25,787 bases of DNA. It comes from a virus. The stretch covers positions 1 through 25,787 of IMG/VR virus record IMGVR_UViG_3300010885_042661. One strand, 5' to 3'. The translations under genes and the position numbers were made by a program. Under the pieces are notes generated by a model. That model was not told the origin of the DNA and did not search any database. It saw only the letters and a list, made by a program, of their open reading frames with translations. Below are positions 6,933 through 25,787 of the stretch, piece after piece. Within the stretch, counting starts at the first letter, position 1. Each line of letters starts with the position of its first letter.

Positions 6933-8428
6933 TGGGAGATAATGTACAACGAAGTCAAGGACGAGGATCAGGTTACAAGTTTGATCGTGGCGGCATGCCC
7001 GCAGAAATGGGTCCTTACATTGGCACAGTCAAAAGCAATGTTGACCCCACACGCGGCGGCCGACTACGAGTGTGGATTGAGCAATTCTCAGGTCCTGATC
7101 AAACCAAAGATAGTCTGTGGCGCACAGTAAAATATCTGCCACCATTTTATGGTGTGACCCCACAGTCGGGTACCAATCAAGGTGCAGGTACCTATGTGGG
7201 CAATCCCAACGCTTATGGCATGTGGTTCACACCTCCTGATCTAGGCACACAAGTTATTTGTTTTTTCATTGCTGGTGATCCCGACGATGGTTACTACATA
7301 GGATGTGTACCTTCACCTGGATTGAATCACATGATTCCGGCCATTGGCGCCAGTACCAAGTATCAAGCCGACAACAACGTTCAGAAACCCTATTTTGTGG
7401 GTGCCACACAGGTTCCTGTGGTTGAAATAAATGACGCCAACAATGCTGTGGCTGGCAATCCTAAATTCTATGATCAGGTCAAACCTGTGCATTCGTATGT
7501 GTCAGGACAGATGATTCAGCAAGGTCTAATCAAAGATGTCATTAGAGGACCAATTACCAGCAACAGCCAACGTGAAAGCCCGTCTGCTGTGTTTGGTATA
7601 TCAACTCCGGGTCGTGCCATTTATCAAGGCGGTCTATCTGAAGTTGACATCAAAGCCAAACTTGAAGCAGGCACAGTGAAGCCACAAGAAGCCACTGTGA
7701 TAGGACGTCGAGGCGGCCACAGCATTGTGATGGATGACGGTAATCTACAAGGCTACGACAATTTGATTAGAATTCGCACCAGCAAAGGTCATCAAATTAC
7801 CATGAGTGATGACGGCGATTGTTTTTACATCACACATGCCAATGGTCAATCCTGGATTGAGTTAGGATCTGAAGGCACAGTAGATATATTCAGCACCAAT
7901 TCTGTCAACGTGCGTACCAAGGGAGAAATCAATCTACATGCTGACAAAACCATCAACATGTATGCAGGCGAAAGTTTCAACATCAAGAGTCCCATTGTCA
8001 ACATTGAAGGGGCACAAAAACTTGCACTGACATCGGCCGGTACACTAGCAATAAAATCCACTGCCGCCTTGTCAGTCAACAGCGATGGATCTTTGAGCTT
8101 GTCGGGCAGTTTGGCCAGTTTGAAATCAGATGGGGCACTGGTTCTTAAAGGCCGACCCATTGACCTTAACGGAGCAATTCCTGCCATACCTGGCCTGCCT
8201 ACTTCAGGTATTCAAGATGTACAATTGCCCGACACTATATTTAAAACCAACATTGGCTGGGAAGTTGAGCAAGGAAAAATCACAACCATTGTGAGTAGAG
8301 CACCCACCCACGAACCTTACCCTTATCATAATCTTGGCGTACCAGTATCAATCACATTGTCAGGAGCCACAACAGATCAAACTAACAACACGTTGCCCCC
8401 AGGTTTTTCTATATCAAGAGGAGTATAG
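6932..8428 (+). CDS. 5: gp5-like baseplate central spike, OB-fold plus beta-helix, no lysozyme
   Basis: A 498-aa central spike protein of the gp5/VgrG type. Residues 27-135 are the OB-fold: GPYIGTVKSNVDPTRGGRLR, then VWIEQF, WFTPPDLGTQVICFFIAGDP and DDGYYIGCVP. Residues 262-412 are a repetitive beta-helix like those of gp5 and VgrG (GHSIVMDDG, IRIRTSKGHQITMSDDGD, SWIELGSEGTVDIFS, then short Ile/Leu/Ser/Asn repeats). A conserved-looking tail follows (VSRAPTHEPYPYHNLG, 454-469). T4 gp5 has a lysozyme domain between these parts; residues 136-260 here have no lysozyme-like catalytic arrangement I can see. The start overlaps the upstream stop (TAATG), with AGAG at 6921-6924 or AAGGA at 6913-6917 as ribosome site. 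It acts at the tip of the tail hub in cell-envelope penetration. Confidence 0.85.
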   Translation: MGDNVQRSQGRGSGYKFDRGGMPAEMGPYIGTVKSNVDPTRGGRLRVWIEQFSGPDQTKDSLWRTVKYLPPFYGVTPQSGTNQGAGTYVGNPNAYGMWFTPPDLGTQVICFFIAGDPDDGYYIGCVPSPGLNHMIPAIGASTKYQADNNVQKPYFVGATQVPVVEINDANNAVAGNPKFYDQVKPVHSYVSGQMIQQGLIKDVIRGPITSNSQRESPSAVFGISTPGRAIYQGGLSEVDIKAKLEAGTVKPQEATVIGRRGGHSIVMDDGNLQGYDNLIRIRTSKGHQITMSDDGDCFYITHANGQSWIELGSEGTVDIFSTNSVNVRTKGEINLHADKTINMYAGESFNIKSPIVNIEGAQKLALTSAGTLAIKSTAALSVNSDGSLSLSGSLASLKSDGALVLKGRPIDLNGAIPAIPGLPTSGIQDVQLPDTIFKTNIGWEVEQGKITTIVSRAPTHEPYPYHNLGVPVSITLSGATTDQTNNTLPPGFSISRGV

Positions 8429-8429
8429 C

Positions 8430-9359
8430 ATGACAACATTTTCTTTTACAGCACCCAATGGAGAAAAGTTCAATGTTGATGCGCCTAACGGCACAACAGA
8501 AATACAAGCACGAGCAATATTTGATCAGCAATACAATGCAGGTGCATTGAATCAGGTAGGTGTGGGACAAACAGTCAATGGACTGAGTACAACTGCATCA
8601 CAGACCCAGGCCAAGGTAGCCAGTTTATCTTCAGTGGCATTGACAAATCCTGTACGAGCAGCACAGGTACTCAAACAACTGCCTGCCACAGTTTCGGTAG
8701 GATCGTTAAACACTCGACAGGTTACCAGTTTGTTGGGACAGGCGGTGCAATCAGTCAACCAGCCATTTAACGTTGCCAGTGTAACAAAAGGCATAGGCTG
8801 TTTTGGATTAACTCCTTCACAGTTGGAACAACAGGGTTTTTTGAAACCTGGCACAGTGAGTCAGTTTTTAGGAAACAATGCTTCTGCTGACTATACCAAA
8901 ATACTACAAAGTCCAGCAGTGTGGACAGGCAAAAGCGGAGTGGCCAGTCTGGATTCGTTTCTTGGCAGCCAAAACATTCAAAACATCACACAGCAAAACA
9001 TCATGAACGTGGGTCTTAGCGGAATGAAATCACTGGGTATGGTCACAGGAACCGAATCGGTACAACAACTATCAGGCCTGGTACAAGGTGCCGCAAAGTT
9101 TGGTCCTGCGGCTATGTCAGAATGGACCAAAGGACTGGCATCACCCAACATTGTGGGATCTATTACTAATTTGGCCAAAGGAGCACAGTTTGCAGTGGGT
9201 CTAATAAGCAGATTGTTTGGCGGCGGCGGCGGGAGATCAGTAACACCTGCGTCAGGCACGGTCAATAGAACAGCCCTTGACAATGCCATTGTTACATTCT
9301 TGGGCAACAGCAAAATACCGCCTCCGCGCTATGGCCCTGTGATTCGAAACCCTGAATAA
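8430..9359 (+). CDS. Virion-associated protein with N-terminal phage tail motif, function unknown
   Basis: The in-frame ATG at 8430 is preferred to one at 8334. It has AGAGGAG at 8416-8422, 7 nt upstream, and leaves a 1-nt gap after gp5 instead of a 95-nt overlap. The product is 309 aa. Residues 1-40 (FSFTAPNGEKFNVDAPNGTT, then EIQARAIFDQQYNAGAL) match a short motif I know from the start of various phage tail and lysis-associated proteins. A central stretch around residues 119-150 (GIGCFGLTPSQLEQQGFLKP, GTVSQFLG) and the following TGKSGVASLDSFLG look folded. A Gly-rich hinge (FGGGGG) near residue 266 precedes a proline-rich end. No enzyme motif is visible. Its position between gp5 and gp25 suggests a hub or baseplate part. 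If the spike lacks lysozyme, this is one candidate for a partner, but nothing in the sequence proves that. Confidence 0.7.
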   Translation: MTTFSFTAPNGEKFNVDAPNGTTEIQARAIFDQQYNAGALNQVGVGQTVNGLSTTASQTQAKVASLSSVALTNPVRAAQVLKQLPATVSVGSLNTRQVTSLLGQAVQSVNQPFNVASVTKGIGCFGLTPSQLEQQGFLKPGTVSQFLGNNASADYTKILQSPAVWTGKSGVASLDSFLGSQNIQNITQQNIMNVGLSGMKSLGMVTGTESVQQLSGLVQGAAKFGPAAMSEWTKGLASPNIVGSITNLAKGAQFAVGLISRLFGGGGGRSVTPASGTVNRTALDNAIVTFLGNSKIPPPRYGPVIRNPE

Positions 9360-9367: not shown

Positions 9368-9742
9368 ATGCCTACTTTTATTGGATTCAACACAATCAAT
9401 CAATACAAAAAATTCACACTTGTGGATTTTGAATTGATCAAGCGTGACTTTGCTAACGCACTCAACATACAACAAGGATCCTTGCCAGGTCGTCCAGGTT
9501 ATGGTACTGTGATATGGAGTTATATATTTGAAAGTCAAACGCCTGAAACCGAACAAGCCATACTTGCAGAACTACAGCGTGTGGCCGGCGGCGACCCTAG
9601 ACTGTACGTTTCAAATGCTGTTAGTTTCCCCAAAGACAATGGCATTCTGGTCGAACTGTCAGTACAAGTGGTACCCAGTCAAACAGCAGAACGCCTGGCA
9701 CTGTTCTTTGACCAACAAAGCCGCAGAGCCAGTTTTATCTAA
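9368..9742 (+). CDS. 25: Baseplate wedge protein gp25
   Basis: A 124-aa gp25/TssE-family wedge protein, close to the 132 aa of T4 gp25. Family features are RPGYGTVIW (residues 42-50, matching the RPF-D/E-FG region), an amphipathic helix TPETEQAILAELQRVAG (58-74), DPRLYV (76-81) and a closing strand LVELSVQVVP (94-103). T4 gp25 anchors the gp6-gp7 trimer bundle and the first sheath ring. The family EPR motif appears here as DPR. The gene lies 8 nt after the previous stop; there is no purine-rich ribosome site before the ATG, and a late-promoter-like AATAAATA sits 5 nt upstream, so the start is unusual. No alternative in-frame ATG exists upstream before a stop. Confidence 0.88.
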   Translation: MPTFIGFNTINQYKKFTLVDFELIKRDFANALNIQQGSLPGRPGYGTVIWSYIFESQTPETEQAILAELQRVAGGDPRLYVSNAVSFPKDNGILVELSVQVVPSQTAERLALFFDQQSRRASFI

Positions 9743-9790: not shown

Positions 9791-12700
9791 ATGGCAAAAA
9801 CCGCACGACAAACCGCTATATTTGGTGTAGAAGATTGGAAGAGACTGTACCAAACCTACAGAGAAGCCGACTTTCAATCCTACGATTTTGAAACTCTACG
9901 CAAGAGTTTTGTTGATTACCTTCGTCTTTATTATCCTGAGACATTCAATGATTACATTGAGTCATCAGAATTTATTGCAATCCTAGACGTCATGGCATTT
10001 ATGGGACAGGCCTTGGCCTTCCGTAACGATTTAAACGCTAGAGAAAATTTCTTAGACACAGCAGAACGTCGTGACTCTGTTGTACGCTTAGCCAATCTAG
10101 TGAGTTACACACCCAAACGTAACACACCGGCACAGGGTTTGATCAAAGTGCTGTCAGTTCAGACCACAGAGAATTTAACAGACTACAACGGTGTCAATCT
10201 CAGCAATGTGACCATTGACTGGAACGACCCCACAAACACCAACTGGTTTGAACAATTTACCACAATTGTCAATGCTGCCTTGGTAGACAGTCAAAGGTTT
10301 GGACGCCCTGGCAACCGCGATACTATCTTAGGTATTCGCACAGACGAATACACCATTAACTATGTGCCTGGATTCTTGCCTGTGGTACCTTATACCTCCA
10401 CAGTGGATGGTGTTAACATGCCATTTGAAGCAGTAAGCAGTACCACAGTGGGTCGTGACTATGTCTATGAACCCGCACCCAAACCCAGTGGTGCATTTAA
10501 CATGTTGTATCGCAATGATCAAATGGGCTACGGGTCAGACAACACAGGATTTTTCTTCTTGTTCAAGCAAGGTGTGTTACAAAATCAAGACTTTAACTTG
10601 GCCGAAGCAATCACAAACCGCACAGTGAATATCAACATTGAAGGTTGTAATCAAGAAGATCACTGGTTATACAAACTAGATGACGTTGGAAGTGTGGCCA
10701 GCGAGTGGTTGTACGTGGAAAGTGTTTATGCTGCCGCAGTTGAACAACTGGCCCCCAACCAAAGAAAAATATACAGTATCACCAGCAGAGCCAATGATCA
10801 GATTACATTGACCTTTGGTGACGGAGTGTTCTCTGAAGTTCCTGTGGGACAGTTTCGTACCTATGTTCGAGCCAGCAACGGTCTGCAATACATTATCAAT
10901 CCTGAAGAAATGCAGAGTGTGCCGATTGTGATCAGTTATGTCAGCAGATTTGGCCGATTAGAAACTATCACATTCAACTGCGGTATCACCACTCCAGTGA
11001 GCAATGCGCAGGCACGTGAAACCATTGAAGAAATCAAACAACGTGCTCCTGCTCGTTATTACACACAAAATCGTATGGTCAACGGCGAAGACTATACATT
11101 GTTCCCGTTCACCAAGTACAATTCAATTATCAAATCCAAGGCTGTGGCTAGATCTGCTGTGGGCACCAGCCGATTCATTGATCTAACAGACATCACAGGC
11201 AAGTATTCGTCAACCAACATATTTGGCAGCGATGGTATGTTGTACGAAGAAAATGTGCTAAACGATTTCCAGTTTGATTGGATCAACCTCAATGACATCA
11301 TTGATGTAATCAACAATTCAGTGGAGCCATTGTTGACCAGTCGGTCAATGTTGCAGTTCTACTATGCTAACTTTCCAAGACCCGATCTTGCAGTACTAGA
11401 GATAACATGGAATCAAAGCACCACACTTATTAATCAAACCACTGGTTATTTTGTAAATGCTCAAGGCAACCCACAACCCATTGGCATTTACAGCGGTAAC
11501 AACACTCAATACATCACACAAGGCAGCCTGGTAAAATTTGAACCTCCTGCGGGCTATTACTTTGATGCCAACAACAGATTGGTAGCAGGAATACCAATTC
11601 GTGCTAATGAAAAACTGGTTATCTGGGCTACTGCAATTGCTGTGGTACTAGATGGAATTGCTCAGGGCGCCGGAAACTTGCCTGATGGAATTGGACCTGT
11701 CACACTGAATAACTTTGTTCCGACAGGTGCAATAGCCACGCAGGTTATTCCTAAATTTGTAGATAATATTCCCACTGCTCTTGAGCAAAGTATGGTACAA
11801 CAAATTGAACTGGCAAGAAATTTTGGCCTTGGATATGATAACCTCACATCAACTTGGTATTTGATTACCAGCACAAACCTAGCACAAAATTCTGCATTTA
11901 GTTTGACTTATGCACAAAACACACAAGGTCTAAATCTTGACGCATCCTGGTTGATAGAATTTGTCACCAACGGATTGAATTACACAGTGACCAGTCGTGG
12001 TTTAAATTATACTTTTGCCAGTGTAATTGAAACTAGATTTTTCTTTGACGGTAGTGAAAAAGTATACGATCCCAAAACAGGATTGGTAATCAATGATTTT
12101 GTTCGTGCATTGAAAACCAACAGCAGACCAGACAGCAACTTGCCACTCAGCAGTGATGTGACCATGGACATCATTGCCCAGCCAGTTGAAAGTGATGGAT
12201 TTGTAAATGATTACAAAGTCACAGTGAGTTACATTGACAGCGATGGGGATGGCGTGGCAGATGATCCAGATTTCTTTGATGAACTTGTGGCACCTGATGT
12301 GGATCCCAATACCAAATTGGTATTCTTGCAGTTGACCACGGATATATATAATCTTGAAAGATATAATCCTGTGGCAGCCGGAATAATCAACACTACCTAT
12401 GCCACACTAAATGACATTGAGTTGGTAAAAGCACAATATCTCAACGGACAGGTATTTTATGCTTATCAATCACAGTTGTTCTATGAACTCACAGTGACCA
12501 CGGTCAATGGCACAATACAACGCACACTGACACAAAGAACAGATTTTATATCTCGCGTGGGTAGACAAAGTTTGTATTATCAATATCGTCATAACTCAGC
12601 ATTGACCAATGTAATTGATCCAGGATCTACCAACATCATTGATTCGTATTTGGTAACACAGGCATATTACACTGCATATCAAAACTATATAAAAGATACC

Positions 12701-13255
12701 ACAGGCACAGTACCTGAGCCGTCAATCCCGACCATTGATGAATTGAACATAGAGTATGCTGGACTCAACAATTATAAAATGATTTCAGATAATCTTGTTT
12801 TAAACTCTGTGGTATTCAAGCCTTTGTTTGGTGCCAAGGCCACTCAGTCATTACGGGCCACTATCAAAGTGGTCAGAGCCGCTAGAAGCACAGCCAGCAT
12901 CAGTGAAATTAAGAGTCAAGTGATCTCTCATGTAAACGATTACTTTACCATTGACAAATGGGATTTTGGTGACAGTTTCTTCTTTTCTGAATTGGCTGCT
13001 TACATACACGAGCGCATGGGTTCTATTGTGAGTTCTGTTGTGTTGGTACCATTGAATCCTCTAAGAACATTTGGCGACTTGTATGAAATACGTTGCGCAC
13101 CCAATGAAATATTTGTCAGTGCAGCCACAGTCAATGATGTTGAAGTTATTGAAGCATTGACACAAAGCAATATACGAAGTCAAACTCCTGTGTCGGGTCT
13201 ATATCCTGTTACCAGCACAGGATCTTCCACAATTAGTCAGACAGGTGAATATTAA
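9791..13255 (+). CDS. 6: Baseplate wedge protein gp6, long form
   Basis: An 1154-aa gp6-family wedge protein (T4 gp6 is 660 aa); gp6 dimers link neighbouring wedges into the inner baseplate ring. The N-terminus is diagnostic: FETLRKSFVDYLRLYYPETF, IESSEFIAILDVMAFMGQAL, FRNDLNARENFLDTAERRDS and LVSYTPKRNTPAQG (residues about 34-118). The C-terminal part carries the family's ring domain, with TIKVVRAARSTASISEIKSQ and DKWDFGDSFFFSELAAYIHE, ending in a short Ser/Thr-rich tail. The extra length lies in a middle region (about residues 590-1000) that includes a calcium-loop-like DSDGDGVADDPD at 816-827. The gene follows a late-promoter-like element and ends in a TAATG overlap with the giant gene, so the two are probably translated together. 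Confidence 0.9.
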   Translation: MAKTARQTAIFGVEDWKRLYQTYREADFQSYDFETLRKSFVDYLRLYYPETFNDYIESSEFIAILDVMAFMGQALAFRNDLNARENFLDTAERRDSVVRLANLVSYTPKRNTPAQGLIKVLSVQTTENLTDYNGVNLSNVTIDWNDPTNTNWFEQFTTIVNAALVDSQRFGRPGNRDTILGIRTDEYTINYVPGFLPVVPYTSTVDGVNMPFEAVSSTTVGRDYVYEPAPKPSGAFNMLYRNDQMGYGSDNTGFFFLFKQGVLQNQDFNLAEAITNRTVNINIEGCNQEDHWLYKLDDVGSVASEWLYVESVYAAAVEQLAPNQRKIYSITSRANDQITLTFGDGVFSEVPVGQFRTYVRASNGLQYIINPEEMQSVPIVISYVSRFGRLETITFNCGITTPVSNAQARETIEEIKQRAPARYYTQNRMVNGEDYTLFPFTKYNSIIKSKAVARSAVGTSRFIDLTDITGKYSSTNIFGSDGMLYEENVLNDFQFDWINLNDIIDVINNSVEPLLTSRSMLQFYYANFPRPDLAVLEITWNQSTTLINQTTGYFVNAQGNPQPIGIYSGNNTQYITQGSLVKFEPPAGYYFDANNRLVAGIPIRANEKLVIWATAIAVVLDGIAQGAGNLPDGIGPVTLNNFVPTGAIATQVIPKFVDNIPTALEQSMVQQIELARNFGLGYDNLTSTWYLITSTNLAQNSAFSLTYAQNTQGLNLDASWLIEFVTNGLNYTVTSRGLNYTFASVIETRFFFDGSEKVYDPKTGLVINDFVRALKTNSRPDSNLPLSSDVTMDIIAQPVESDGFVNDYKVTVSYIDSDGDGVADDPDFFDELVAPDVDPNTKLVFLQLTTDIYNLERYNPVAAGIINTTYATLNDIELVKAQYLNGQVFYAYQSQLFYELTVTTVNGTIQRTLTQRTDFISRVGRQSLYYQYRHNSALTNVIDPGSTNIIDSYLVTQAYYTAYQNYIKDTTGTVPEPSIPTIDELNIEYAGLNNYKMISDNLVLNSVVFKPLFGAKATQSLRATIKVVRAARSTASISEIKSQVISHVNDYFTIDKWDFGDSFFFSELAAYIHERMGSIVSSVVLVPLNPLRTFGDLYEIRCAPNEIFVSAATVNDVEVIEALTQSNIRSQTPVSGLYPVTSTGSSTISQTGEY

Positions 13256-16200
13256 TGGCTCAGCGTACTGTAGATTTATTACCAGAAATTTTCCGCACAG
13301 ATACCAACAAAAAGTTTTTTGCGGCCACACTGGATCAACTCACACAAGAGCCTAGACTTAAAAAGACACAGGGGTTCGTTGGACGTAGAGTAGGTCCGGG
13401 AGTAAATCCTGCAGATAATTATGTCACTGAGCCTTCTAAAACCAGATCAGACTATCAACTGGAGCCTGGTGTTGTATTCTTAAAAACTGATACTAACACA
13501 GCAATAGATGCCATAACATATCCGGGCATGATTGATGCATTAAACTTGCAAGGTGCCAACACACAACGTCAAGATCGACTATGGGAAAGTGAATACTATG
13601 CCTGGGATCCGTTTTGCGACCTAGATAAATTTACCAATTACAGTCAATACTACTGGATACCCAACGGGCCAGACAGCGTGGACCTGAGCAGTACAGCAGT
13701 ACCACTCACTGATGATTTCACAGTTACACGTACATCTACCTTAGATACTCATGCTTATCAGTTCAGTGGCCTTGCCGGTAACAACCCTATTGTGACCCTG
13801 GCCCGGGGCGGCACATACACCTTTGAGATCAATCAACCTGGTGCACCATTCTGGATTCAATCAGTTCCTGGAATCAATGGCACCTTGCCACAAACACCTA
13901 ATATCTCCAGCAGAGATGTATTGGGGGTGACCAATAATGGCATCACTGGTGGTACAGTTACTTTCAACGTGCCGCTTAAAAATGCACAAGATTTTTATTA
14001 TGCTCTCACTGACTTTGGCTCAGTAGACTTGTTGACAAGTTTACAGTTTGATCAAATCAACAACATCTATGTAGATGACTTCCTTGCGGCAAATTCCTCA
14101 GGCATTGACGGTGTTACCAATCTCAATGGTCGTACTGTGGTATTCACCACACAGACCACTGGATGGGGAGTCACCACATTCTTTGACCCGTTGCTTCCTG
14201 CAGGTAACGTGGTCAGCGGCACAGGCAGTTATGACAGTGTAGACTTTGATCAGGTAACTCCTATCACAGATCAAGCCATTCAATACAGCGTTTGGCAAAT
14301 ACAGTACATGTATGATTTTGACAATCGCCCGTACATGGTGCTTACCAGTGTGTTGACTATCCCCAATCTCAATAAGTTTCGTATTTTATTTGGCACACAA
14401 TGGAGTAACACTTACTGGTATAAAAACTCAGGTGGATACTTTGAACAAGTTCCATTACTTACTGCTATACTAGATACCCTATGGTATCAAGACGGCAGTG
14501 ATCCAGATATATTTGGACAAATTCGACTTGTTGATCTAGACGTTGGCGCACCAGTAGACGCCAACGACATTGTGGGTGCCAAGAATTATACCAGCCCCAA
14601 TGGCGTGGTACTGACCAATGGCCTGAAAGTTCAGTTTCGTGGATTAACTAGACCTGCTGAATTTCAAAATCTTGAATATTATGTTGAAGGCGTTGGCACT
14701 GGCCCAGGCATTAACTTACGAGTGGGATTTATTGACGGAGAAGCATATTTTGGACCTTGGCATTATTATCAAGGTCAAAAGATGACTGGAAGTGTGCATA
14801 GCGAAACTACTTTTCAACTCTACATCTATGAGTCCTTAGAAGATAGTGTACTCAATCCAGGCGCTGGCGCACCCGAAGGAGCACCATTACCTAGCACACC
14901 CATAGCCGGCGCATCATTGGGAGTTGGCATACGGTTGCTGCCAATTACAGATTTTGTAACTCCTGAAACTTACACTAAAAATTTAACAATACCGTTTGAT
15001 AGCGTGCCATTTGATTCAACTGCATTTGATGGAAGTTTAAATTCTCCAGTTGTACAGGACTATCTAACAATCAACAGAGCCAGTTTAGACCTCAATGCTT
15101 GGACAAGAAGCAATCGCTGGTTTCATATTGATGTACTACGTGCCACAGCAGAATATAACAATCAAACTGTAGTAGTAGACAATGCACAACGAGCCAAGCG
15201 TCCAATCATTGAATTCCGTGCTGGTGTGGAACTTTACAATTTTGGCACACAAGGTAAACAACCTATCAATGTGATTGATCTACAAGAAACAGATGCATTC
15301 AGCAACATCAACGGAACCTTGGGTTATAGCATTGATGGCTACTCTTTTGTCACAGGCAGCCGAGTAATTTTTGCCGCAGATCTTGATCCTCAGGTGCGCA
15401 ATCGAATCTGGGAAGTGATTTTTATTGACCCAACCAATACAGGCAATCTGGTTATTGATTTGGTTCCTGTATATGATAATGTGGCTCAAACGGGTCAAAC
15501 AGTTGTGTGCTTGAGCGGCCTTAGTTTACAAGGTAAAAGTTTTTGGTTTGATGGTGATATCTGGACTGAAGCACAACAAAAGACTGGGGTTAATCAAGCA
15601 CCTTTGTTTAACATACGAGATGCCGACGGTGTATCATATGCTGATCGGGCAGTGTATCCAAGCAGTACTTTCACAGGTAGCCGTTTGTTTGGATATGCAC
15701 TGGGTGGCACACAACAAACCGACGAAGTATTGGGATTTGCATTAAAGTATCTCAACATCAACAACGTTGGTGATATTGTATTTGAAAACTACCTGTACAC
15801 AGATACATTTATCTATGTACGAGATTCTGTCAGTACTACACTAAACATCAGCAACGGATATGCAAGACAGTACGTTGATCGGATTCAATTCTCTAATCAA
15901 ATTGGATGGCAAACGGCCGCAGTTGAAAACCGCAGTAGACAAGTATTCCGATTCATCTACGATGGAATTCCATTGGTGTTTGATGTACCTCCTGCAGCCA
16001 ACACAGTATTTCCTGTACTACAGATCTTTATTGAAGGCATTTTTGTTGACCCTTCAACTTATACATTAACAAGCACATCTGTTTCAACCACTGTGACTTT
16101 TGTCACAGCACCACCTGTTGGCTCAATCATTGATGCTGAACTCATTAGTGACGTAGCAAGTTCTGTTGCGTACTATGAAGTTCCGTTGAATTTAGAAAAT

Positions 16201-19200
16201 AATCCTTTAAACAACAACAGTACTGCATTTACACTAGGCACTATACGTACACACTACAACAGTATTGGACAAAATCTTGTAAACATTTCTGGACCTATCA
16301 ATGGCGCCAACAACACAAGAGACCTTGGCGACATCATACGCTATGGTGATTTAATTGTGCAACATTCTGCTCCGTTGACCCTGGATGGTGTGTTTTTACG
16401 TCGACAACAATATCAACTGTTTAATTCCATTAGATTCAATAGCCAAGAGTATGAAAAGTACAAAGCCTTGCTAATTGATGTGGCCACCCGCGGCGACTTT
16501 GTAAACAACACCCCTACCCAAGTGCTTGACCAAGCCATGCTTGAAATTTCTCTAGGCAGAAACAACTTGTCTCCGTTCTACTGGAGTGACATGGTTCCGT
16601 CTGGTGAGACCTATGTAGAGAACACCTATACATATACCGCAATCAGTACACCAACATTTGATACCCAGTACGTGTATAGTTTTACAACTTCCAACTTCCG
16701 TGGACTGTTGGTGTATTTAAATGGTAACTTGTTGATCAAAGGGTATGATTATACCGTGGGAGACAATGCGCCCACGGTGACCATTACTGCTACACTAGCA
16801 GTGGGCGATGTTGTTGTCATTAGAGAATATCTAACCACCTATGGTAGTTTTGTGCCTAATACTCCCACAAAGATGGGACTGTATCCTGCATTCAAGCCAG
16901 AAATATTCGAAGATAAAACTTCTGGCTCTCCAGTATTGGTAATTCAAGGACACGACGGATCAATTACTCGAGCATTTGGTGATTATCGAGACAATGTGCT
17001 ATTGGAATTTGAGTCAAGAATTTTTGATAATTTAAAAATTGCTACACCTATCCCAATGACACTGGACGAAGTCATGCCTGGTCAGTTTAGAACAACTGAT
17101 TACACACTAGGTGAAGTCAATGATATTCTAGCCACAGACTTTTTAAGTTGGGTAGGCTGGAACAAACTAGATTACACCACCCAGAATTATTTGCCTGGCA
17201 ATGAATTTACCTACAACTACAGTCAAAGTGGCAATAGATTAACAACCCAACCATTGCTAGGCGCCTGGAGAGGTATCTACAATTACTTCTATGATACCTA
17301 TGCTCCTAACACACGCCCTTGGGAGATGCTGGGATTCAGCCAAGAACCCACCTGGTGGAAAGATGAATACGGCCCTGCTCCTTATACGTCAGGTAACTTG
17401 GTGCTGTGGAGTGATCTTGAACAAGGTCTTGTGAGAGATCCTGCAGGATCATATGTATTGCCTCTGTACGTCCGCCCTGGGCTTACCAACGTTATACCAT
17501 CTGATTCCGAAGGTGCATTACTGAGCCCATTAGATGCAGTGGTTGGCAATTACGATGCCACCAGTTTCCGTCGTTCATGGGCATTTGGCGACGATGGCCC
17601 TGTAGAAAGCACCTGGCGCACAAGTTCATCATGGCCGTTTGCTGTGATGAGACTGTTGGCCCTGACCAAACCTGCCAAATTCTTTGCATTGTTTGCAGAC
17701 CGAGACAGATATGTTTACGATACCGCAATTGAACAATATCTGTGGGATGTCCGCTATAGACTTGATGCCAACAAATTAAATCCTTTGTACGGCCAAGGTG
17801 TCAGCAAGGCCAGTTATATCAACTGGATCATTGACTACAACAGACAACTAGGTCATGACAGCACAGCAGAATTAACAACTGCCCTTAGCAATGTGGATGT
17901 ACGCCTGTGCTGGAGACTGGCTGCTTTCTCAGACAAAAAATATTTAAAAATTTATACCGAACGTGGAACTCCAAACAGTCTCAACACCAGTTTGTTGTTG
18001 CCTGATGAAAGTTATCAATTGTTGCTGTATAAAAATCAGCCTTTTGCAAAAACAACCTATAGTTCTGTAATCATACAAAAAACAGATACAGGATATGCAG
18101 TGTTGGGTTATAATACAACCAATCCGTATTTTGAAATACTGACCAGTAGACCCAGTGGTAATAGTGTGACTGTGTCGGCTGGCAATGTGTCAGTTAGAGT
18201 ATCAACAGAATATTCAAATGATGTGGTACAGGTTCCCTACGGGTATGTGTTCACCAACAATACCGCAGTGTGTGACTTTTTGATCAACTATGGTAGATTG
18301 TTAGAAGCACAAGGCATGACGTTTGACAGTGGCGAAAACGGATATGTTCTCAACTGGTTTCAGATGGCACAAGAGTTCTTGTACTGGAGTCAACAAGGGT
18401 GGGCACCAGGATCCATGGTCAATCTTAATCCCACTGCTACAAAACTAACAGTAACCAGACCGCAGTCTGTGGTTGACAGCATTGCTACTCCTACTCCTGA
18501 AAACTTGGTACTCAACCAGAATAGACAGGTATTGCCAGCCAACGACATGATAATTGATCGTCTTGACAATACATTTACTTTAAGAACAGTAACCAATAAT
18601 ACAATCAACTACATTGATCTCAAATACACGTCTTACGAACACATAATCATCCTGGACAATGTGAGTATATTTGCAGACTTGATCTATGATCCAGTGACTG
18701 GTGCAAGGCAAAGTCGTGTGCTGGTGTCAGGTTGGCTCACAGCCGATTGGACAGGCTTAGTTGATGCGCCAGGCTTTGTGCTCAATCAAGACAACATTGT
18801 GGAATGGGTACCAACACGCAAATACGCCAAAGGTGAAATTGTGCTGTTCAAGAACGAGTACTGGTCTGCCAGTACTATTATTCAGCCCAGCCAAGCGTTC
18901 AATTACAATGTCTGGATCAAGAGCGATTACAATCAAATACAGAAAGGTCTGTTGCCCAATGCTGCCAATGTCAGTGATCAATTGGCGCAGGCCTATTCTG
19001 TGTACGATGCCAACTTGGAAAATGAAATTGACTTGTTCAGTTATGGATTGATTGGATTCCGTCCAAGAGAATACATGGCAGCATTGAATCTTGATGATGT
19101 CAGTCAGGTTGATTTGTACCAACAGTTTATTGGAACCAAAGGTACCATACGTAGTGCTGAAATATTCACCTTTGCCAACCTTGGCAAGGAAACTGCTCAG

Positions 19201-22200
19201 TATGATATCTACGAATACTGGGCCATGTCTCGCAGTCAATATGGCGCCACTGCCAACAGACGATATTTTGAATTGTTGCTCAACGAAGCCCATTTAAAAT
19301 CTGATCCTAGTTTGATCCAAGTGATTGAGCCTGGACAAACCAGCCAGGCAGATCAAACAGTATTGTTACAGAATATTTGGAAACTGAGTTATTCTCCAAC
19401 ATCTGCCAACTTGTTGCCCACAACAACCAGTGTGGTCACAGACATTGGTCTGCCCACCGCTGGTTATGTCAAACTAGGTGATGTAGACATCACTGCATTT
19501 GATTTGGCAACTTCACAGGCCATCAATGCTGACCTGGAAAATGTAGGGGTTGGCACATTGATATGGGTAGCCAAAGTAAATTCATATGACTGGGATGTGT
19601 ACAGATGCGAACATATCTATGGTGATATTACCACGGTGTCAGACAATCTTGACAATCTGTCTCTGGTAACATTCAGTCGCCAACATGGTCTTGTGACTGG
19701 CGACTATCTAATCATAAGATTTTTTAATGATGCTATCAATGGTGTGTACCAGATTAGATCAGTACCGTCATTGACCACAGTGTTAATTGACTATGTGTTC
19801 ACAGGATCATTGGCCAATGCTACAGCAGTTACAGGTTCGGGTTCAGGATTTATTCTCCAACCTGCCAGAGTTGTGCAAGCCTCTGACATTGTAACATTGC
19901 CATATGTCAACGAAATTGTACCAGGTGCCAAAGTTTGGGTAGACAACAATGGTGATGGGCTGTGGACTGTGTTGGAAAAAACATCCCCGTTCACACCCAC
20001 AATTAGAATAACTGCTGATTCCCCTACAGTCGACGATCAATTTGGATCAGCCGTATCTCAAGGTATAAGAAATCTCTTTGCCTTGGTGGGAGCACCAGGA
20101 TATGATAGCAATGCAGGCGGCGTGTACACCTATGTCAAGGCCAGCAATAATCAATACGTTCAAAATGCACAAGTACAACAACTAGGTACACCTGATGCAA
20201 CGGGATTTGGTAATGCTATGGACATTGGAGACCAAAGTTGGGCCGTGGTGGGTGCCAGCACAAGTGACACCAATCAAGGCTATGCTGCCGCAATATACAA
20301 TATACCTGGTACCAATGTTATAGAACAAACGCAATTGTTTGTTATACCCGATCAGGACTTTCGTACAGCAAGATTTGGTTACTCAGTGACCATAAGTCAA
20401 AACGAGCGTTGGATGTACATTGGTGCACCTGACATTAATAAAGTTTATGCCTATGGGTTAGTTGACGTTGAAGAACAAATAGTTCGTTACGTCACTGATG
20501 GAATTTCTACTGTTTATTCGTTCTCGGGAGAAATTGAGATCAATAACAATCAGCAAGTCAGTGTTATATTAGACAATACTGTACTGACATTGAACGTAGA
20601 TTATTCTGTTGCCGGAACATCAATTGCGTTGAGTTCTATACCACCTGTTGGATTAAAATTAATAATTTTACGTCGCAATTCAGTGCAGTTAGACGCAAAC
20701 AACTATACAGCCGTTACAGGCACCACAGGCGGCAGCGGTACTGATGCTACATTCAGTGTCAACAACACACATGGAGTCTATTCAGTAGTATTAACAAATG
20801 GCGGAGATTTTTATGCTGTGAACGATACTATTACTGTATTAGGAACCTCAGTTGGCGGAACTACCACTGCTAATGATATCACAGTCACAGTCACAGCCAT
20901 TGATGGTGTAGGAACAGGACCAATAACTAGTATTTCATACACAGGAACTGGCGCAATAAGTTACGGTCCGTTTGCATTAAATGATGAATTGTATACTGCT
21001 ACAAATATATTCTCTTTTGCCATCAAAGTCAATGGATCATTGTATAGACCATTCCTTGATTATGACATTATAGCAGACAGCACTCTTACCACAATTGAAT
21101 TCCATAATGCTACCACACTGCCACCAGCAGGCGCAACCATCATGGCATATGCCAACTCATACTGGGACTTTGTTGAAGTACTCACAGTAGCCGGGTTGCC
21201 TGCAGATGCTGAATTTGGACACAGTGTCAGTACCACATCAGATGGTAGACAAATCTTAGTTGGCGTCCCAGGAATATCAGCAACAATTAATTCTACATCT
21301 GCTGCCCGAGCTGGATCTGTATATGTGTTTGATAGATCAGTACAAACCTTCCAGGTTACTGATGCCGCAACACTGAGTTACACAACTGAAGTTTCTCAAC
21401 AGGGTCCTGTATCTGTGTCAATTAATGGAGAATTCTTGCAAGATTCTGCACAGTTTATCAACGGACAATACAGCATTGCTGGTGACACAGTTACATTGGC
21501 ATCCAGCGTTGACCTTGTGGTAGGTGATTTTATAACAGTTGACACCAATGATTTTACTTTGATTCAAGAACTCACAGTTGGCCAACCTTACGCTGGATCT
21601 GAGTTTGGATACATTGTTGACCAATGCATAAACAACTGTAGTTTATATGTGGGCGCACCGTTTGATAGTGCTATTTTACCCAAGGCAGGTCGAGTAGAAT
21701 ATTATCAAAATCAAATCAGAGTATATGGAACAGTAACATCCAACATTGGTAATCCTACGTTGACACCCGGGGAGTTTATTAGAATCAACAATATTTTTGT
21801 TGAAGTTCAAACACCTACTTCTTGGTCGTCGTCTGTATCTTGGTCAGTTGACTCGTTTGCAACCACTGGTGGAAACATTTATAGAGCCTTGCGTAACGTG
21901 CCAATCGGCACAGCAATCACGGATATTTCTTACTGGAAAGGCAGCAGTTGGGTAGAAATGTTTGCCAGCCAAATTAATAATGCTGGTATACCTAATGCTC
22001 AAGCCTCTTCGGTGCCAGACTTTGAAGGCCTTGCTGATGGCAGCAGTACAGTTTACAGTGTAGGAACAATATATTCTTCTGCTGACTCATATACTCCATT
22101 GGTATATTTAGATAACGTTGCACAAACACTGGGAGTAAACTATACCTACAGCAACTCAGCACAAACAATAACATTTGCAATTGCGCCTACTAAAAACGTA

Positions 22201-25200
22201 TTGATAACAGCAATTAGTGGTAGACTCACTGTGTCTGTTAGGAACTTTGATGCATCACAACCACTCAATAGATTGCAAGTACTACCTGGCACAGGAACTG
22301 TATTTGAAGACCTTGGATTTGAAACCTATGTAAATCAACAGGTAATTAGAGCACCTGTTGTGCAGGATTTTGCCAACTTTGGTCAAGTTCTTTCTATCAG
22401 TGACAACACAACTACATTACTTGTTGGTGCACCGCATGGTAGTACATTGATATATGATGCGTTTGATCATGGTACCACAACATTTGATGCCAATTCAACT
22501 GTGTTCTTTAATGCAGTAACTGACAGTGGCGCAGCCTACGTATATGATTTCTTGCCAGCCGCCAACGCCACAGTGAACAATCCAGGGCAGTTTGCGTTTG
22601 GCCAGGAAATATATGACAGCAGTATTGCCTCAGGATCTGAGTTTGGATCAGCATTAGATTATACCACTGGTACTTTATTAATTGGTGCACCGTCTGCTGA
22701 CATTGATGGCAATGTTAACAGCAACTACGGACAGGTGGCTAGATTTGAAAACATTGATCGTTTACCAGCCTGGACTGTGTTAAGATTGCAACAGCCAGTG
22801 GTTGATGACTCTTTGTTGAATACAGCATTCATGTACGATAGAGTTACCAATGCTGAAAAACAATATTTTGATCACTTCAATCCGTTGCAAGGACGCATAC
22901 TTGGTGTGGTTCGACAGAACATTGACTTCATTGGTGCAGTAGATCCTGCCGCATACAATGTTGGAGAATTAAACAATTATGGTCAGCGTTGGGCACAGGC
23001 AAGAGTGGGACAAATTTGGTGGGACACAGACAATGTACGATTCATTGACCCCAACCAGGACGACATTGTGTATGCCAGCCGACGTTGGGGACAAGTGTTC
23101 CCAGGCAGTACTGTGGATGTTTATCAATGGATATCTTCTACAGTACCACCAGTAGATTACATAGGTCCTGGAATACCATTGAGCACAACCAGTTATTCAG
23201 TTACTTCGTCTGTGACTGAACAAGGATTGTTTGTTACCAACTACTTCTTTTGGGTGCAAGGCATCACAACCGTAGCACGGTCAGCCCTAAAAACCCTAAG
23301 TACTGTGACAATTTCTCAATACATTGAATCACCTCGCAGTAGTGGCATTGCATATATTGCACCTATCAATAGTAGCACAATTGCTATCTACAACGGATTG
23401 CCATACATTAGTGCTCAAGATACTGTGCTACACGTAGAATTTGATCAGCAATTTACTGAAAATGCAGTACACGTTGAATATCAGTTGATTGCACAAGATC
23501 GTGCAGATGGATTCTTGTCAGCACCATTGTACAGAAAAATGCAAGACAGTTTCAGCGGCGTAGACACACAAGGTGCGCAGGTTCCTGATCCATTCTTGTC
23601 ACCCAGTGAAAAATATGGTGTGTTGTTTAGACCGCGCCAAAGTTTCTTCCAGAATCGATTCCTTGCACTAGAAAATTACCTAGGCAGAGCCAACACAGTG
23701 TTGACTTTGTATCCTGTGACTGAGAGTCGTAAATTTAATTTACTCAACAGTGCAGAACCTGAGCCAAGTGCATCGTCGGGTGCCTGGGACAAGCGTGTGG
23801 CCAACAATGAAGAACTGCTATTCCAGGACCTTGCACAGGTGCCAGTTGGCTATCGTTATCTTGTGGTCAGCGACAGTACCAATAATGGTCTGTGGACAAT
23901 ATATCAAGTAATCTCAGGACCACTTGTGGGCTCAAAAGAATTACAACTGTCAAGAGTACAAAACTACGACACCAAAAAATACTGGAGTTATGTCAACTGG
24001 TATCTGCCAGGATATAACCCGTTGACAAGACCAGTGACAGAAGTTCCCACTTACTCAGCCTTGGAAACTATAACAGTGCCCGAGGGTAGTTCTGTTAGGG
24101 TAACAGCCAACGCACAAGGTAAATTTGAAATATATCAATTAACTGCAGGTGAGTGGATAAGAGTAGGACTACAAGACGGCACAATACAATTCAGTGCTGT
24201 GTTGTGGGATTATGCACTTGGTCGATTTGGATTTGATGTAGAAGTGTTTGATGCACAGTATTTTGATCAGGAACCTGTTGTTGAAACACGTAGAATTATT
24301 CAAGCCATTAATGAAGAATTATTCATTGACGATTTGGCAATAGAACGCAATAGACTGTTGACATTGATGTTTAATTACATTCTGACAGAACAGCAGGCAC
24401 CGCTGTGGTTGACCAAAACCAGTTTGATTGATGTTGACCATACTATTCGTGAACTAGTACCATTCCAGATATATCGACGAGACAACCAAGACTTTGTTTT
24501 GAACTATATCCAAGAAGTCAAACCTTACCATGTACAAATTCGCGAATTCAATCTGATTTACAATGGATTTGACCAGTTCTCAGGTTCGCTGACAGACTTT
24601 GATTTGCCAGCATTCTGGGACCCAACACAAAACTTGTTTATCAGCCCTGTGTTGGACAACACAGGTACACTGAGTACTACCTCTAGTTATCCAAGTTCTG
24701 CGGCTGTGTGGCAGACTTTTCCTTGGAACCAATGGTATCAAAATTATCTCTTAGAGATACAAGATGTAACCATTGTAGACGGTGGCACAGGCTATACAAT
24801 TGCCCCAGATGTAGTGGTCACAGGCGACTGTGTGGTTCCTGCTGAAATGACAGCAACAATTAACAGCGCAGGACAAGTGATTGCAATTGCCATTATTGAC
24901 CCAGGTCAAGGTTACACAACAACAGCAATCATTACCATGACAGGTGGCAACGGATCAGGTGCAACTGCTGTGGCTGTGATGGGCAACGGCCTTGTTAGAA
25001 ATATCAACACAACAATCAAATACGATCGTTACCAATATCAAACTACCATAGTGGACTGGGCTGCCAATGTTCAATATGAAAATGGTACTCAAGTTCGGTA
25101 TGATGATCGAGTGTGGGAAGCCAGCAATGACGACAGTTCTGCTGTTGAAAGTGCAACATTTGATCCGGCCCAATGGACGCTGGTAGCAGCCAGCAGCCTC

Positions 25201-25787
25201 AGCGGCGTTGATCGTACCATGGGATTCTATGCTCCTGCAGTTAACGAGCCAGGACTAGATCTAGCACTGTTGATCTCAGGTATAGACTATCCTGGAGTAC
25301 AAGTACTAGGCCCTGGATTTGATCAAAACACAGGATTTGATGTTGGTAACTTTGACATCAATCCGTTTGATAACATTTCATTTGGTCCAGAAGGACGTCC
25401 AACATACGACCCTGCAATTTTGGATGCCATATATGAAAGCAACTTTGTTGATCCTTACCTTGGAGTGGGTCCATCCGCTATCAATGTTGCAGGTGGCGCA
25501 TTTGTTGACGAGTATTCAAGTCATGCTCCTGAAGAATTGGTTCCGGGTGCTATATTTGACACACTAGATATTCGTGTGTTTACCACACCCGGAGCAGACT
25601 GGACCAACAATGGGCATGGGTTTCCGCTTAGAGAAATCAGTTATGAATTCACTGCACCTGGCACAACATACAGTTTTCAGGACGTATTACCATACCCAGT
25701 GGCCATCAAAGTCTTTAATAAAAATGTAGGAATAGACCTCATACCCAATGTTGACTACATTGTTAACTGGCCCACACAAACTATCAC
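13255..25787 (+). CDS. Giant modular baseplate/adhesin protein, at least 4,177 aa, 3' end outside window
   Basis: One frame is open from the ATG in the TAATG overlap with gp6 (AGGTGA at 13243-13248, 6 nt spacing) to the window edge. The head, VDLLPEIFRTDTNKKFFAAT and NYSQYYWIPNGP (residues 6-135), and a Trp-rich core at 1263-1490 (RPWEMLGFSQEPTWWKDEYG, TWRTSSSWPFAVMRLLALTK) look like the large protein that follows gp6 in aquatic T4-like phages. Domains in order: cupredoxin-like beta domain (about 163-252); HGL-type beta domain (2135-2172); seven FG-GAP blades (2263-3166) with insertions; conserved helical stretch with NYIQEVKPYHVQIREF (about 3692-3745); GGxGY repeat pair (3838-3912); CBM-like motif (3933-3979); SSHAPEELVPGAIFDTLDIR (4088-4107). 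The position equals T4 gene 7 (1032 aa), the wedge scaffold, but homology to gp7 is not shown. The likely role is wedge scaffold plus exposed host- or surface-binding module. No stop or frameshift was seen. Confidence 0.85.
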   Translation, partial: MAQRTVDLLPEIFRTDTNKKFFAATLDQLTQEPRLKKTQGFVGRRVGPGVNPADNYVTEPSKTRSDYQLEPGVVFLKTDTNTAIDAITYPGMIDALNLQGANTQRQDRLWESEYYAWDPFCDLDKFTNYSQYYWIPNGPDSVDLSSTAVPLTDDFTVTRTSTLDTHAYQFSGLAGNNPIVTLARGGTYTFEINQPGAPFWIQSVPGINGTLPQTPNISSRDVLGVTNNGITGGTVTFNVPLKNAQDFYYALTDFGSVDLLTSLQFDQINNIYVDDFLAANSSGIDGVTNLNGRTVVFTTQTTGWGVTTFFDPLLPAGNVVSGTGSYDSVDFDQVTPITDQAIQYSVWQIQYMYDFDNRPYMVLTSVLTIPNLNKFRILFGTQWSNTYWYKNSGGYFEQVPLLTAILDTLWYQDGSDPDIFGQIRLVDLDVGAPVDANDIVGAKNYTSPNGVVLTNGLKVQFRGLTRPAEFQNLEYYVEGVGTGPGINLRVGFIDGEAYFGPWHYYQGQKMTGSVHSETTFQLYIYESLEDSVLNPGAGAPEGAPLPSTPIAGASLGVGIRLLPITDFVTPETYTKNLTIPFDSVPFDSTAFDGSLNSPVVQDYLTINRASLDLNAWTRSNRWFHIDVLRATAEYNNQTVVVDNAQRAKRPIIEFRAGVELYNFGTQGKQPINVIDLQETDAFSNINGTLGYSIDGYSFVTGSRVIFAADLDPQVRNRIWEVIFIDPTNTGNLVIDLVPVYDNVAQTGQTVVCLSGLSLQGKSFWFDGDIWTEAQQKTGVNQAPLFNIRDADGVSYADRAVYPSSTFTGSRLFGYALGGTQQTDEVLGFALKYLNINNVGDIVFENYLYTDTFIYVRDSVSTTLNISNGYARQYVDRIQFSNQIGWQTAAVENRSRQVFRFIYDGIPLVFDVPPAANTVFPVLQIFIEGIFVDPSTYTLTSTSVSTTVTFVTAPPVGSIIDAELISDVASSVAYYEVPLNLENNPLNNNSTAFTLGTIRTHYNSIGQNLVNISGPINGANNTRDLGDIIRYGDLIVQHSAPLTLDGVFLRRQQYQLFNSIRFNSQEYEKYKALLIDVATRGDFVNNTPTQVLDQAMLEISLGRNNLSPFYWSDMVPSGETYVENTYTYTAISTPTFDTQYVYSFTTSNFRGLLVYLNGNLLIKGYDYTVGDNAPTVTITATLAVGDVVVIREYLTTYGSFVPNTPTKMGLYPAFKPEIFEDKTSGSPVLVIQGHDGSITRAFGDYRDNVLLEFESRIFDNLKIATPIPMTLDEVMPGQFRTTDYTLGEVNDILATDFLSWVGWNKLDYTTQNYLPGNEFTYNYSQSGNRLTTQPLLGAWRGIYNYFYDTYAPNTRPWEMLGFSQEPTWWKDEYGPAPYTSGNLVLWSDLEQGLVRDPAGSYVLPLYVRPGLTNVIPSDSEGALLSPLDAVVGNYDATSFRRSWAFGDDGPVESTWRTSSSWPFAVMRLLALTKPAKFFALFADRDRYVYDTAIEQYLWDVRYRLDANKLNPLYGQGVSKASYINWIIDYNRQLGHDSTAELTTALSNVDVRLCWRLAAFSDKKYLKIYTERGTPNSLNTSLLLPDESYQLLLYKNQPFAKTTYSSVIIQKTDTGYAVLGYNTTNPYFEILTSRPSGNSVTVSAGNVSVRVSTEYSNDVVQVPYGYVFTNNTAVCDFLINYGRLLEAQGMTFDSGENGYVLNWFQMAQEFLYWSQQGWAPGSMVNLNPTATKLTVTRPQSVVDSIATPTPENLVLNQNRQVLPANDMIIDRLDNTFTLRTVTNNTINYIDLKYTSYEHIIILDNVSIFADLIYDPVTGARQSRVLVSGWLTADWTGLVDAPGFVLNQDNIVEWVPTRKYAKGEIVLFKNEYWSASTIIQPSQAFNYNVWIKSDYNQIQKGLLPNAANVSDQLAQAYSVYDANLENEIDLFSYGLIGFRPREYMAALNLDDVSQVDLYQQFIGTKGTIRSAEIFTFANLGKETAQYDIYEYWAMSRSQYGATANRRYFELLLNEAHLKSDPSLIQVIEPGQTSQADQTVLLQNIWKLSYSPTSANLLPTTTSVVTDIGLPTAGYVKLGDVDITAFDLATSQAINADLENVGVGTLIWVAKVNSYDWDVYRCEHIYGDITTVSDNLDNLSLVTFSRQHGLVTGDYLIIRFFNDAINGVYQIRSVPSLTTVLIDYVFTGSLANATAVTGSGSGFILQPARVVQASDIVTLPYVNEIVPGAKVWVDNNGDGLWTVLEKTSPFTPTIRITADSPTVDDQFGSAVSQGIRNLFALVGAPGYDSNAGGVYTYVKASNNQYVQNAQVQQLGTPDATGFGNAMDIGDQSWAVVGASTSDTNQGYAAAIYNIPGTNVIEQTQLFVIPDQDFRTARFGYSVTISQNERWMYIGAPDINKVYAYGLVDVEEQIVRYVTDGISTVYSFSGEIEINNNQQVSVILDNTVLTLNVDYSVAGTSIALSSIPPVGLKLIILRRNSVQLDANNYTAVTGTTGGSGTDATFSVNNTHGVYSVVLTNGGDFYAVNDTITVLGTSVGGTTTANDITVTVTAIDGVGTGPITSISYTGTGAISYGPFALNDELYTATNIFSFAIKVNGSLYRPFLDYDIIADSTLTTIEFHNATTLPPAGATIMAYANSYWDFVEVLTVAGLPADAEFGHSVSTTSDGRQILVGVPGISATINSTSAARAGSVYVFDRSVQTFQVTDAATLSYTTEVSQQGPVSVSINGEFLQDSAQFINGQYSIAGDTVTLASSVDLVVGDFITVDTNDFTLIQELTVGQPYAGSEFGYIVDQCINNCSLYVGAPFDSAILPKAGRVEYYQNQIRVYGTVTSNIGNPTLTPGEFIRINNIFVEVQTPTSWSSSVSWSVDSFATTGGNIYRALRNVPIGTAITDISYWKGSSWVEMFASQINNAGIPNAQASSVPDFEGLADGSSTVYSVGTIYSSADSYTPLVYLDNVAQTLGVNYTYSNSAQTITFAIAPTKNVLITAISGRLTVSVRNFDASQPLNRLQVLPGTGTVFEDLGFETYVNQQVIRAPVVQDFANFGQVLSISDNTTTLLVGAPHGSTLIYDAFDHGTTTFDANSTVFFNAVTDSGAAYVYDFLPAANATVNNPGQFAFGQEIYDSSIASGSEFGSALDYTTGTLLIGAPSADIDGNVNSNYGQVARFENIDRLPAWTVLRLQQPVVDDSLLNTAFMYDRVTNAEKQYFDHFNPLQGRILGVVRQNIDFIGAVDPAAYNVGELNNYGQRWAQARVGQIWWDTDNVRFIDPNQDDIVYASRRWGQVFPGSTVDVYQWISSTVPPVDYIGPGIPLSTTSYSVTSSVTEQGLFVTNYFFWVQGITTVARSALKTLSTVTISQYIESPRSSGIAYIAPINSSTIAIYNGLPYISAQDTVLHVEFDQQFTENAVHVEYQLIAQDRADGFLSAPLYRKMQDSFSGVDTQGAQVPDPFLSPSEKYGVLFRPRQSFFQNRFLALENYLGRANTVLTLYPVTESRKFNLLNSAEPEPSASSGAWDKRVANNEELLFQDLAQVPVGYRYLVVSDSTNNGLWTIYQVISGPLVGSKELQLSRVQNYDTKKYWSYVNWYLPGYNPLTRPVTEVPTYSALETITVPEGSSVRVTANAQGKFEIYQLTAGEWIRVGLQDGTIQFSAVLWDYALGRFGFDVEVFDAQYFDQEPVVETRRIIQAINEELFIDDLAIERNRLLTLMFNYILTEQQAPLWLTKTSLIDVDHTIRELVPFQIYRRDNQDFVLNYIQEVKPYHVQIREFNLIYNGFDQFSGSLTDFDLPAFWDPTQNLFISPVLDNTGTLSTTSSYPSSAAVWQTFPWNQWYQNYLLEIQDVTIVDGGTGYTIAPDVVVTGDCVVPAEMTATINSAGQVIAIAIIDPGQGYTTTAIITMTGGNGSGATAVAVMGNGLVRNINTTIKYDRYQYQTTIVDWAANVQYENGTQVRYDDRVWEASNDDSSAVESATFDPAQWTLVAASSLSGVDRTMGFYAPAVNEPGLDLALLISGIDYPGVQVLGPGFDQNTGFDVGNFDINPFDNISFGPEGRPTYDPAILDAIYESNFVDPYLGVGPSAINVAGGAFVDEYSSHAPEELVPGAIFDTLDIRVFTTPGADWTNNGHGFPLREISYEFTAPGTTYSFQDVLPYPVAIKVFNKNVGIDLIPNVDYIVNWPTQTI
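13741..14010 (+). other. Cupredoxin-like beta domain in the giant protein
   Basis: Residues about 163-252 read HAYQFSGLAGNNPIVTLARG, GTYTFEINQPGAPFWIQSVP, then GGTVTFNVPLKNAQDFYYAL. This is the pattern of a plastocyanin-like beta-sandwich (an exposed G-x-TY-x-F-x-I strand followed by a Pro-Phe loop), seen in many aquatic phage structural proteins. The usual metal ligands (His, Cys, Met) are not evident, so it is probably structural rather than copper-binding. Confidence 0.45.
18802..18930 (+). other. Carbohydrate-binding-like Trp motif 1 in the giant protein
   Basis: Residues 1850-1892 contain EWVPTRKYAKGEIVLFKNEY, then WSAS and, after a loop, a terminal Trp. The order W-x-Y-x-x-G-x-x-V-x-x-x-x-x-(Y/W)-x-A...W resembles small chitin-binding-type modules (CBM5/12). 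Similar segments lie at 21841-21960 and 25051-25191. Sugar binding is not shown. Confidence 0.4.
20032..22752 (+). repeat. Seven FG-GAP repeats forming a split seven-bladed beta-propeller
   Basis: Seven copies of the integrin-alpha-type pattern FG-x-(S/A)-V ... (L/I/V)-VGAP ... G-x-V-Y-x-Y occur in the giant protein. Their FG pairs start at residues 2263, 2318, 2374, 2654, 2784, 3042 and 3130. Examples are LVGAPGYDSNAGGVYTYV (blade 1), MYIGAPDINKVYAYG (3), ILVGVPG...AGSVYVFDR (4), LYVGAPFD...AGRVEYYQ (5), LLVGAPHG...SGAAYVYDF (6) and LLIGAPSADIDGN...YGQVARF (7). Blade 2 is weaker (VVGAST). Blades normally sit about 60 residues apart; the steps 280, 130 and 258 mark insertions after blades 3, 4 and 5. 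Blade 7 keeps a D-x-DG loop as in calcium-binding FG-GAP blades. Confidence 0.8.
21841..21960 (+). other. Carbohydrate-binding-like Trp motif 2, in the propeller insertion after blade 5
   Basis: Residues 2863-2902 begin with Trp, then contain GGNIYRALRNVPIGTAITDI followed by SYWKGSSWVEM. The G-x-IYRA ... W spacing matches the other two segments. It sits between propeller blades 5 and 6, next to a copy of the NG...DY module. Confidence 0.35.
24766..24990 (+). repeat. GGxGY repeat pair in the giant protein
   Basis: Two half-repeats, VDGGTGYTIAPDVVVTG (residues 3841-3857) and DPGQGYTTTAIITMTGGNGS (3882-3901), follow the pattern GGxGY-T-x-x-P-x-(V/I)-x-(V/I)-(T)-GG, then a GATAxAxV strand. This motif is frequent in tail fibre and structural proteins of aquatic phages. 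It begins just after the conserved helical stretch and directly precedes the third Trp motif. Confidence 0.6.
25051..25191 (+). other. Carbohydrate-binding-like Trp motif 3 in the giant protein
   Basis: Residues 3933-3979 contain VDWAANVQYENGTQVRYDDR, VWEAS and FDPAQWTLVA. The W...Y-x-x-G-x-x-V-x-Y-x-x-x-(V)-W-x-A ... W-x-LV order is the clearest of the three copies and closest to the small CBM5/12-type fold. It lies directly after the GGxGY repeats. Function is inferred by resemblance only. Confidence 0.45.

Follow-up and report, generated by a model that had tools for sequence, protein, structure and literature searches.

Our results suggest that a seven-bladed propeller of the integrin-alpha type sits as an insert in the turn of a conserved β-hairpin of a giant baseplate-associated phage protein, that it has been inherited vertically, and that it would act as a rigid platform for host contact or fibre docking; taken as a whole, we regard this explanation as fairly probable. 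On the basis of the models and alignments described below, the predicted fold of the propeller, its site, its pattern on the tree and the positions of its inserted modules can be taken as established, and its inheritance as well supported.

The window, the whole stretch of DNA analysed here, is a virus record of 25,787 bases. It encodes a late sigma factor, a gp53-like wedge subunit, a gp5-type hub/lysozyme, gp25-like (9368-9742) and gp6-like (9791-13255) wedge proteins and, directly after the latter, the giant frame that carries the propeller (13255..25785, plus strand). This frame is open at the contig end and encodes at least 4177 aa; its full-length relatives have about 4650-4990 aa. The giant protein belongs to PHROG 10938 (virion structural protein), both by its match to the core profile (E = 0, aa 966-1846) and by its position after a gp6-type wedge gene. 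The homologue in phage CBB was detected in virions by mass spectrometry (PMC5259590). The PA5oct homologue was likewise detected in virions by this method. No solved structure related to the giant protein was found, and a PDB search with profiles of two of its conserved parts gave no match at E <= 1. Since the structure of T4 gp7 is solved and present in the PDB, this search should have included it; the giant protein shares with gp7 its gene position and not sequence similarity, so the label "T4 wedge" rests on gene order. Thus, the baseplate-associated protein proposed in the earlier note is indeed a virion giant encoded directly after gp25- and gp6-type wedge genes, and its identity as a T4 wedge component is one of gene order.

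A T4-type portal was present in 6 of the 7 large contigs (up to 345 kb) encoding the same giant protein, and the one portal tested was closest to those of Phosso and Atu_ph07 (about 56% identity). These portals, together with the virion-protein homology of the giant, indicate that the window most likely derives from a T4-type jumbo myophage; a terminase search contributed little more. A cyanophage host was dropped from consideration on weak evidence, the absence of the Photo_RC gene from the seven large contigs. Within 6932-9359 two frames overlap, that of the gp5-type hub (6932-8428) and one starting with TTG (8334-9359), and the second likewise matches a hub/lysozyme profile; gp5 may be split in the window, or its start may be misplaced. 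In the giants of the window (P0001, aa 3935-3956) and of PA5oct (P0002, aa 1595-1618), weak CBM_5_12 matches below the curated cut-off were also observed.

The seven FG-GAP blades that the earlier note had read in the giant frame were recovered. The strict pattern FG-x(11-15)-[VI][GA][AV][PS] has exactly seven matches in the giant protein, all within aa 2263-3146 (cores at aa 2263, 2318, 2374, 2654, 2784, 3042 and 3130), compared to a mean of 0.03 and a maximum of 1 in 2,000 shuffles of the same protein. Each blade was then scored with a profile from which it had been left out, using as control the best of 200 shuffles per blade (range 5.8-11.6 bits). Six of the seven blades exceeded their own best shuffle: blades 1, 3, 4, 5, 6 and 7 scored 20.5, 24.4, 18.0, 15.6, 9.7 and 8.7 bits, ranging from the clear case of blade 1 (best shuffle 11.6 bits) to the marginal one of blade 7 (best shuffle 8.3 bits). 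Blade 2, with 6.1 bits versus 8.8 for its best shuffle, failed, and it was also the outlier when the blade profiles were compared with each other; position and predicted structure are what identify it as a putative blade.

The Pfam family FG-GAP_2 (PF14312, curated cut-off 23 bits) matched both the whole window protein (E = 9.4e-12, 45.4 bits) and the propeller segment (E = 8.8e-17, 61.5 bits), scored 87.7 bits in a compact relative, and was matched by all 26 aligned relatives. The classic FG-GAP family (PF01839) had no match in the window; PF14312 is the right Pfam model for these blades.

AlphaFold2 gave confident models for the window segment (26 sequences; pLDDT 84.6, pTM 0.85) and for the compact relative L120 (64 sequences; pLDDT 91.0, pTM 0.89). 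When the L120 model was compared with the PDB using Foldseek, the best 50 matches were all integrin alpha chains, with TM values, normalised to the target, of at most 0.62. The alignments had about 790 columns for a query of 779 residues and so cover the entire domain. Integrins also predominated among the matches of the window model (best target TM 0.51), whose lower global superposition is due to its large inserts; its first-ranked match, a portal-tail chain of cyanophage A4, was uninformative (TM 0.10). Another candidate suggested by a Foldseek match, S-CBWM1, was rejected because it had no FG-GAP_2 match. In the models, therefore, the window domain is a propeller of the integrin-type seven-bladed fold, as the earlier note had anticipated. 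The end-to-end integrin matches and the DSSP strands suggest that the ring is closed, with the strand pairing at the closure expected from integrin topology: an N-terminal strand (aa 2247-2252) probably supplies the outer strand of blade 7. This closing strand sets the start of the propeller at about 19993, and with the DSSP strands of the model and integrin topology we place its limits at 19993..22749 (plus strand, as are all parts given below). The previously proposed 20032-22752 was therefore nearly right.

Blade 1 spans 20029..20175, with its FG core at 20041, and blade 2, which diverges most and has four strands in the model, spans 20194..20340, with its core at 20206; blade 6 lies at 22378..22611 and blade 7 at 22642..22749. 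The DSSP of the window model places three large inserted blocks, absent from the earlier note, between strands C and D of blades 3, 4 and 5. In blade 3, strands A-C (20374..20463) and strand D (21160..21183) enclose an array of modules (20464..21159) that in part resembles the N-terminal domain of the T7 tail fibre. In blade 4, strands A-C (21214..21354), with a weak single-blade match to integrin alpha-IIb, and strand D (21529..21573) flank one module (21355..21528), delimited by DSSP and blade spacing. The modules of blade 5 (21712..22326), delimited in the same way, lie between strands A-C (21604..21711) and strand D (22327..22347). The A-B loop of this last blade (DQCINNCS), at the place where integrins bind calcium, contains two cysteines (C-x3-C) that hardly vary among 64 relatives; they could form a disulfide or a metal site.

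Almost all close relatives have large inserts at blades 3, 4 and 5, and a minority show longer spacing elsewhere (e.g. L065, L070). Compact propellers have 450-490 aa in total and blade spacings of about 45-95 throughout (L182, L223), and in one of them, at 6564-8009 of L199, all seven blades are recognisable by eye. In intermediate relatives (e.g. L174, L158) the blade starts are spaced by about 53, 51, 130, 120, 146 and 88 aa, and in the window's group typically by 55, 57, 188-406, 125-140, 149-270 and 88. Among the relatives the distance from blade 3 to blade 4 takes values of about 125, 190, 275, 359 and 406 aa, rising in steps of about 65-85 aa, and that from blade 5 to blade 6 is mostly 145-270 aa. 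The likeness to the T7 fibre comes from a match of PF03906 to the window segment (E = 5.6e-4, below the curated cut-off). In T7, the N-terminal domain is the part that fixes the fibres to the tail. This resemblance favours a reading in which the propeller would be a docking hub within the particle, its partners being other tail proteins (fibres, whiskers or the next wedge) and not the host. Propellers are common protein-binding hubs, and a single origin with no loss seen, described below, fits such a role too; against it speak the faster divergence of the propeller compared to the baseplate sequence on either side, and the existence of related phages that have the giant protein but no propeller. 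We consider this reading unlikely, if the most serious of the alternatives.

The domain has an integrin fold but is not an integrin. It shares with integrin alpha chains (alpha-V, alpha-5, alpha-IIb) the seven FG-GAP blades and, by Foldseek, the fold over the whole domain, and these chains were also the only sequence-profile matches of the propeller in the PDB, weak ones at E of about 0.07. In contrast, no conserved motif corresponding to the D-x-D-x-DG calcium loops of integrins was found between FG and GAP in any blade of 26 members, which is why we do not class it as an integrin; a calcium-dependent, integrin-like adhesion was discarded for the same reason. The D-x-DG loop that had been pointed out in blade 7 is present, but it follows the GAP motif instead of occupying the place of the calcium loop in integrins, and it is not a conserved feature. 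In integrins the I domain is inserted between blades 2 and 3, unlike the inserts in the C-D hairpins of blades 3-5 seen here. In the window giant, the Pfam scan recognised no further integrin domain, including those of the leg (thigh, calf).

Comparison of the flanks located the insertion site. The window reads LWTVLE-[propeller]-AWTVLRLQQPVVD, in which the strand before the propeller (19963..19980; segment residues 14-19 by DSSP) and that after it (TVLRLQ region, 22771..22791; residues 950-956) correspond, by comparison with empty sites, to the two arms of one interrupted hairpin of the host domain. The empty sites of L173 (WKVYQKYGVWFEYRSENKKVD) and L202 (WTVYKRAQGRWTAFRQQEYKVD) each read as one short hairpin, and PA5oct also reads through. 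The gap between the flanks is 931 aa in the window versus 4 in L173, -4 in L172 and 5 in L202; it is 28 aa in L197, 33 aa in Vibrio 2.275.O and -17 aa in CBB, Munch and XaC1. In the clearest empty-site cases, these alignments indicate that the propeller is an insert replacing the turn of a conserved β-hairpin. The PHROG 10938 giants of PA5oct, CBB, Atu_ph07 and Phosso have the same gene order and both flanks, homologous at about 20-30% identity, but lack FG-GAP blades at this site, where the flanks meet or hold other inserts. The giants of Atu_ph07 and Phosso (L005, L008) carry about 1,300 aa of other material, including repeats of the kind GxGYxxxPxVxVxGGxGxGA, and seven uncultured giants (L152, L153, L155-L157, L170 and L196) carry 380-640 aa of non-FG-GAP sequence. 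The site seems to be a general insertion point.

The propeller could also be structural filler with no specific partner, kept since its removal would disturb the folding of the giant. The lack of losses in our sample agrees with this, but cultured jumbo phages (CBB, Munch) have the giant without any propeller and, in the alignment of the relatives, the propeller core columns are conserved across deep divergence, so we give this proposal hardly any credit.

To follow the propeller among relatives, we sampled the best matches to two queries among the IMG/VR matches listed, which comprised more than 570 loci. Among these, at least 189 giants could be scored (a few contigs being counted twice): 166 with the propeller, 8 with an empty site and 15 with other content. 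In a quick maximum-likelihood tree built on the adjoining core sequence, from which the propeller was excluded, all 58 propeller rows fell on one side of one branch (support 100), and the propeller state required one change, versus a mean of 19.4 when shuffled. This means one gain or one loss, which the tree itself does not separate. A single gain in this clade is favoured as the simpler of the two, since every other lineage sampled has a site that is either short or occupied by something else. The single change led us to drop exchange of the propeller between lineages; vertical descent, with the propeller retained in every sampled descendant, is well supported.

None of the cultured phages searched has a propeller at this site. 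Both the DNA search against phages and tblastn with the window propeller gave no match, as was the case for the compact relative L120, and no relative was found in bacterial and archaeal genome contigs using patterns taken from the flank rather than the blades. No description of an FG-GAP propeller in a phage baseplate or a jumbo phage was found in the open-licence literature searched. Proteins that have FG-GAP_2 repeats, or that resemble the compact propeller, do occur in other phages (S-TIM5 AEZ65754, Atu_ph07 gp320, two Phosso giants and an FG-GAP protein of Vibrio phage nt-1), yet these are separate genes, whereas here the family is embedded in a baseplate protein. In cyanophage S-TIM5 the protein stands alone, and its annotation is that of a virion structural protein. 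The two adjacent giants of Sinorhizobium phage Phosso (L141, 48338-68978; about 3,160 and 3,690 aa), annotated as hypothetical, contain dozens of FG-GAP_2 repeats.

Sequence divergence is faster in the propeller than in its flanks (0.47 versus 0.64-0.66 mean pairwise identity), and the blade-3 insert is the least conserved part (0.40). This fits surface exposure, and also weaker constraint. Together with the integrin-type fold and the occurrence of FG-GAP repeats in virion or adhesin-like proteins of other phages, this divergence would agree with a propeller that is itself the primary, host-specific adhesin, a receptor-binding head as put forward in the earlier note. Phages usually exchange their receptor-binding parts between lineages, however, and no such swapping was seen; moreover, fibre-type genes appear to lie downstream of the giant gene in relatives. 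We judge a primary adhesin improbable, with receptor binding by the propeller a plausible, putative activity. Note that the absence of lineage swapping also counts against the host-contact platform that we prefer.

The mechanism that fits best is a permanent display scaffold for surface-contact or fibre-docking modules, favoured over a freely swapped receptor tip by the single origin and the absence of losses. In the giant of one large T4-type jumbo clade, the propeller occupies the turn of the conserved hairpin; with both ends at this turn, the ring can stand off the protein and leave the core undisturbed. The C-D hairpins of blades 3, 4 and 5 carry the extra modules, some of them T7-fibre-N-terminal-like. 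Each giant would hold up a rigid platform, and in adsorption the free face with its hanging modules would touch the surface of the host or fibres docked there. Exposure on the particle and contact with the host are what we infer from these data, and the place on the baseplate rim suggested by the earlier note is a putative one.

Finally, we tentatively propose, with some doubt, that a large jumbo clade was founded by one acquisition, and that the integrin-like head borne by each of its giants enlarges by the stacking of modules in fixed hairpins; it would be a platform dedicated to host contact, of a kind not known in cultured phages. A domain gained once, at a precise position, and shared by a whole clade allows a clean test of the way in which giant baseplates become elaborated. 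It also allows one to ask if bacterial viruses use an integrin-type head to touch surfaces, as animal cells do.
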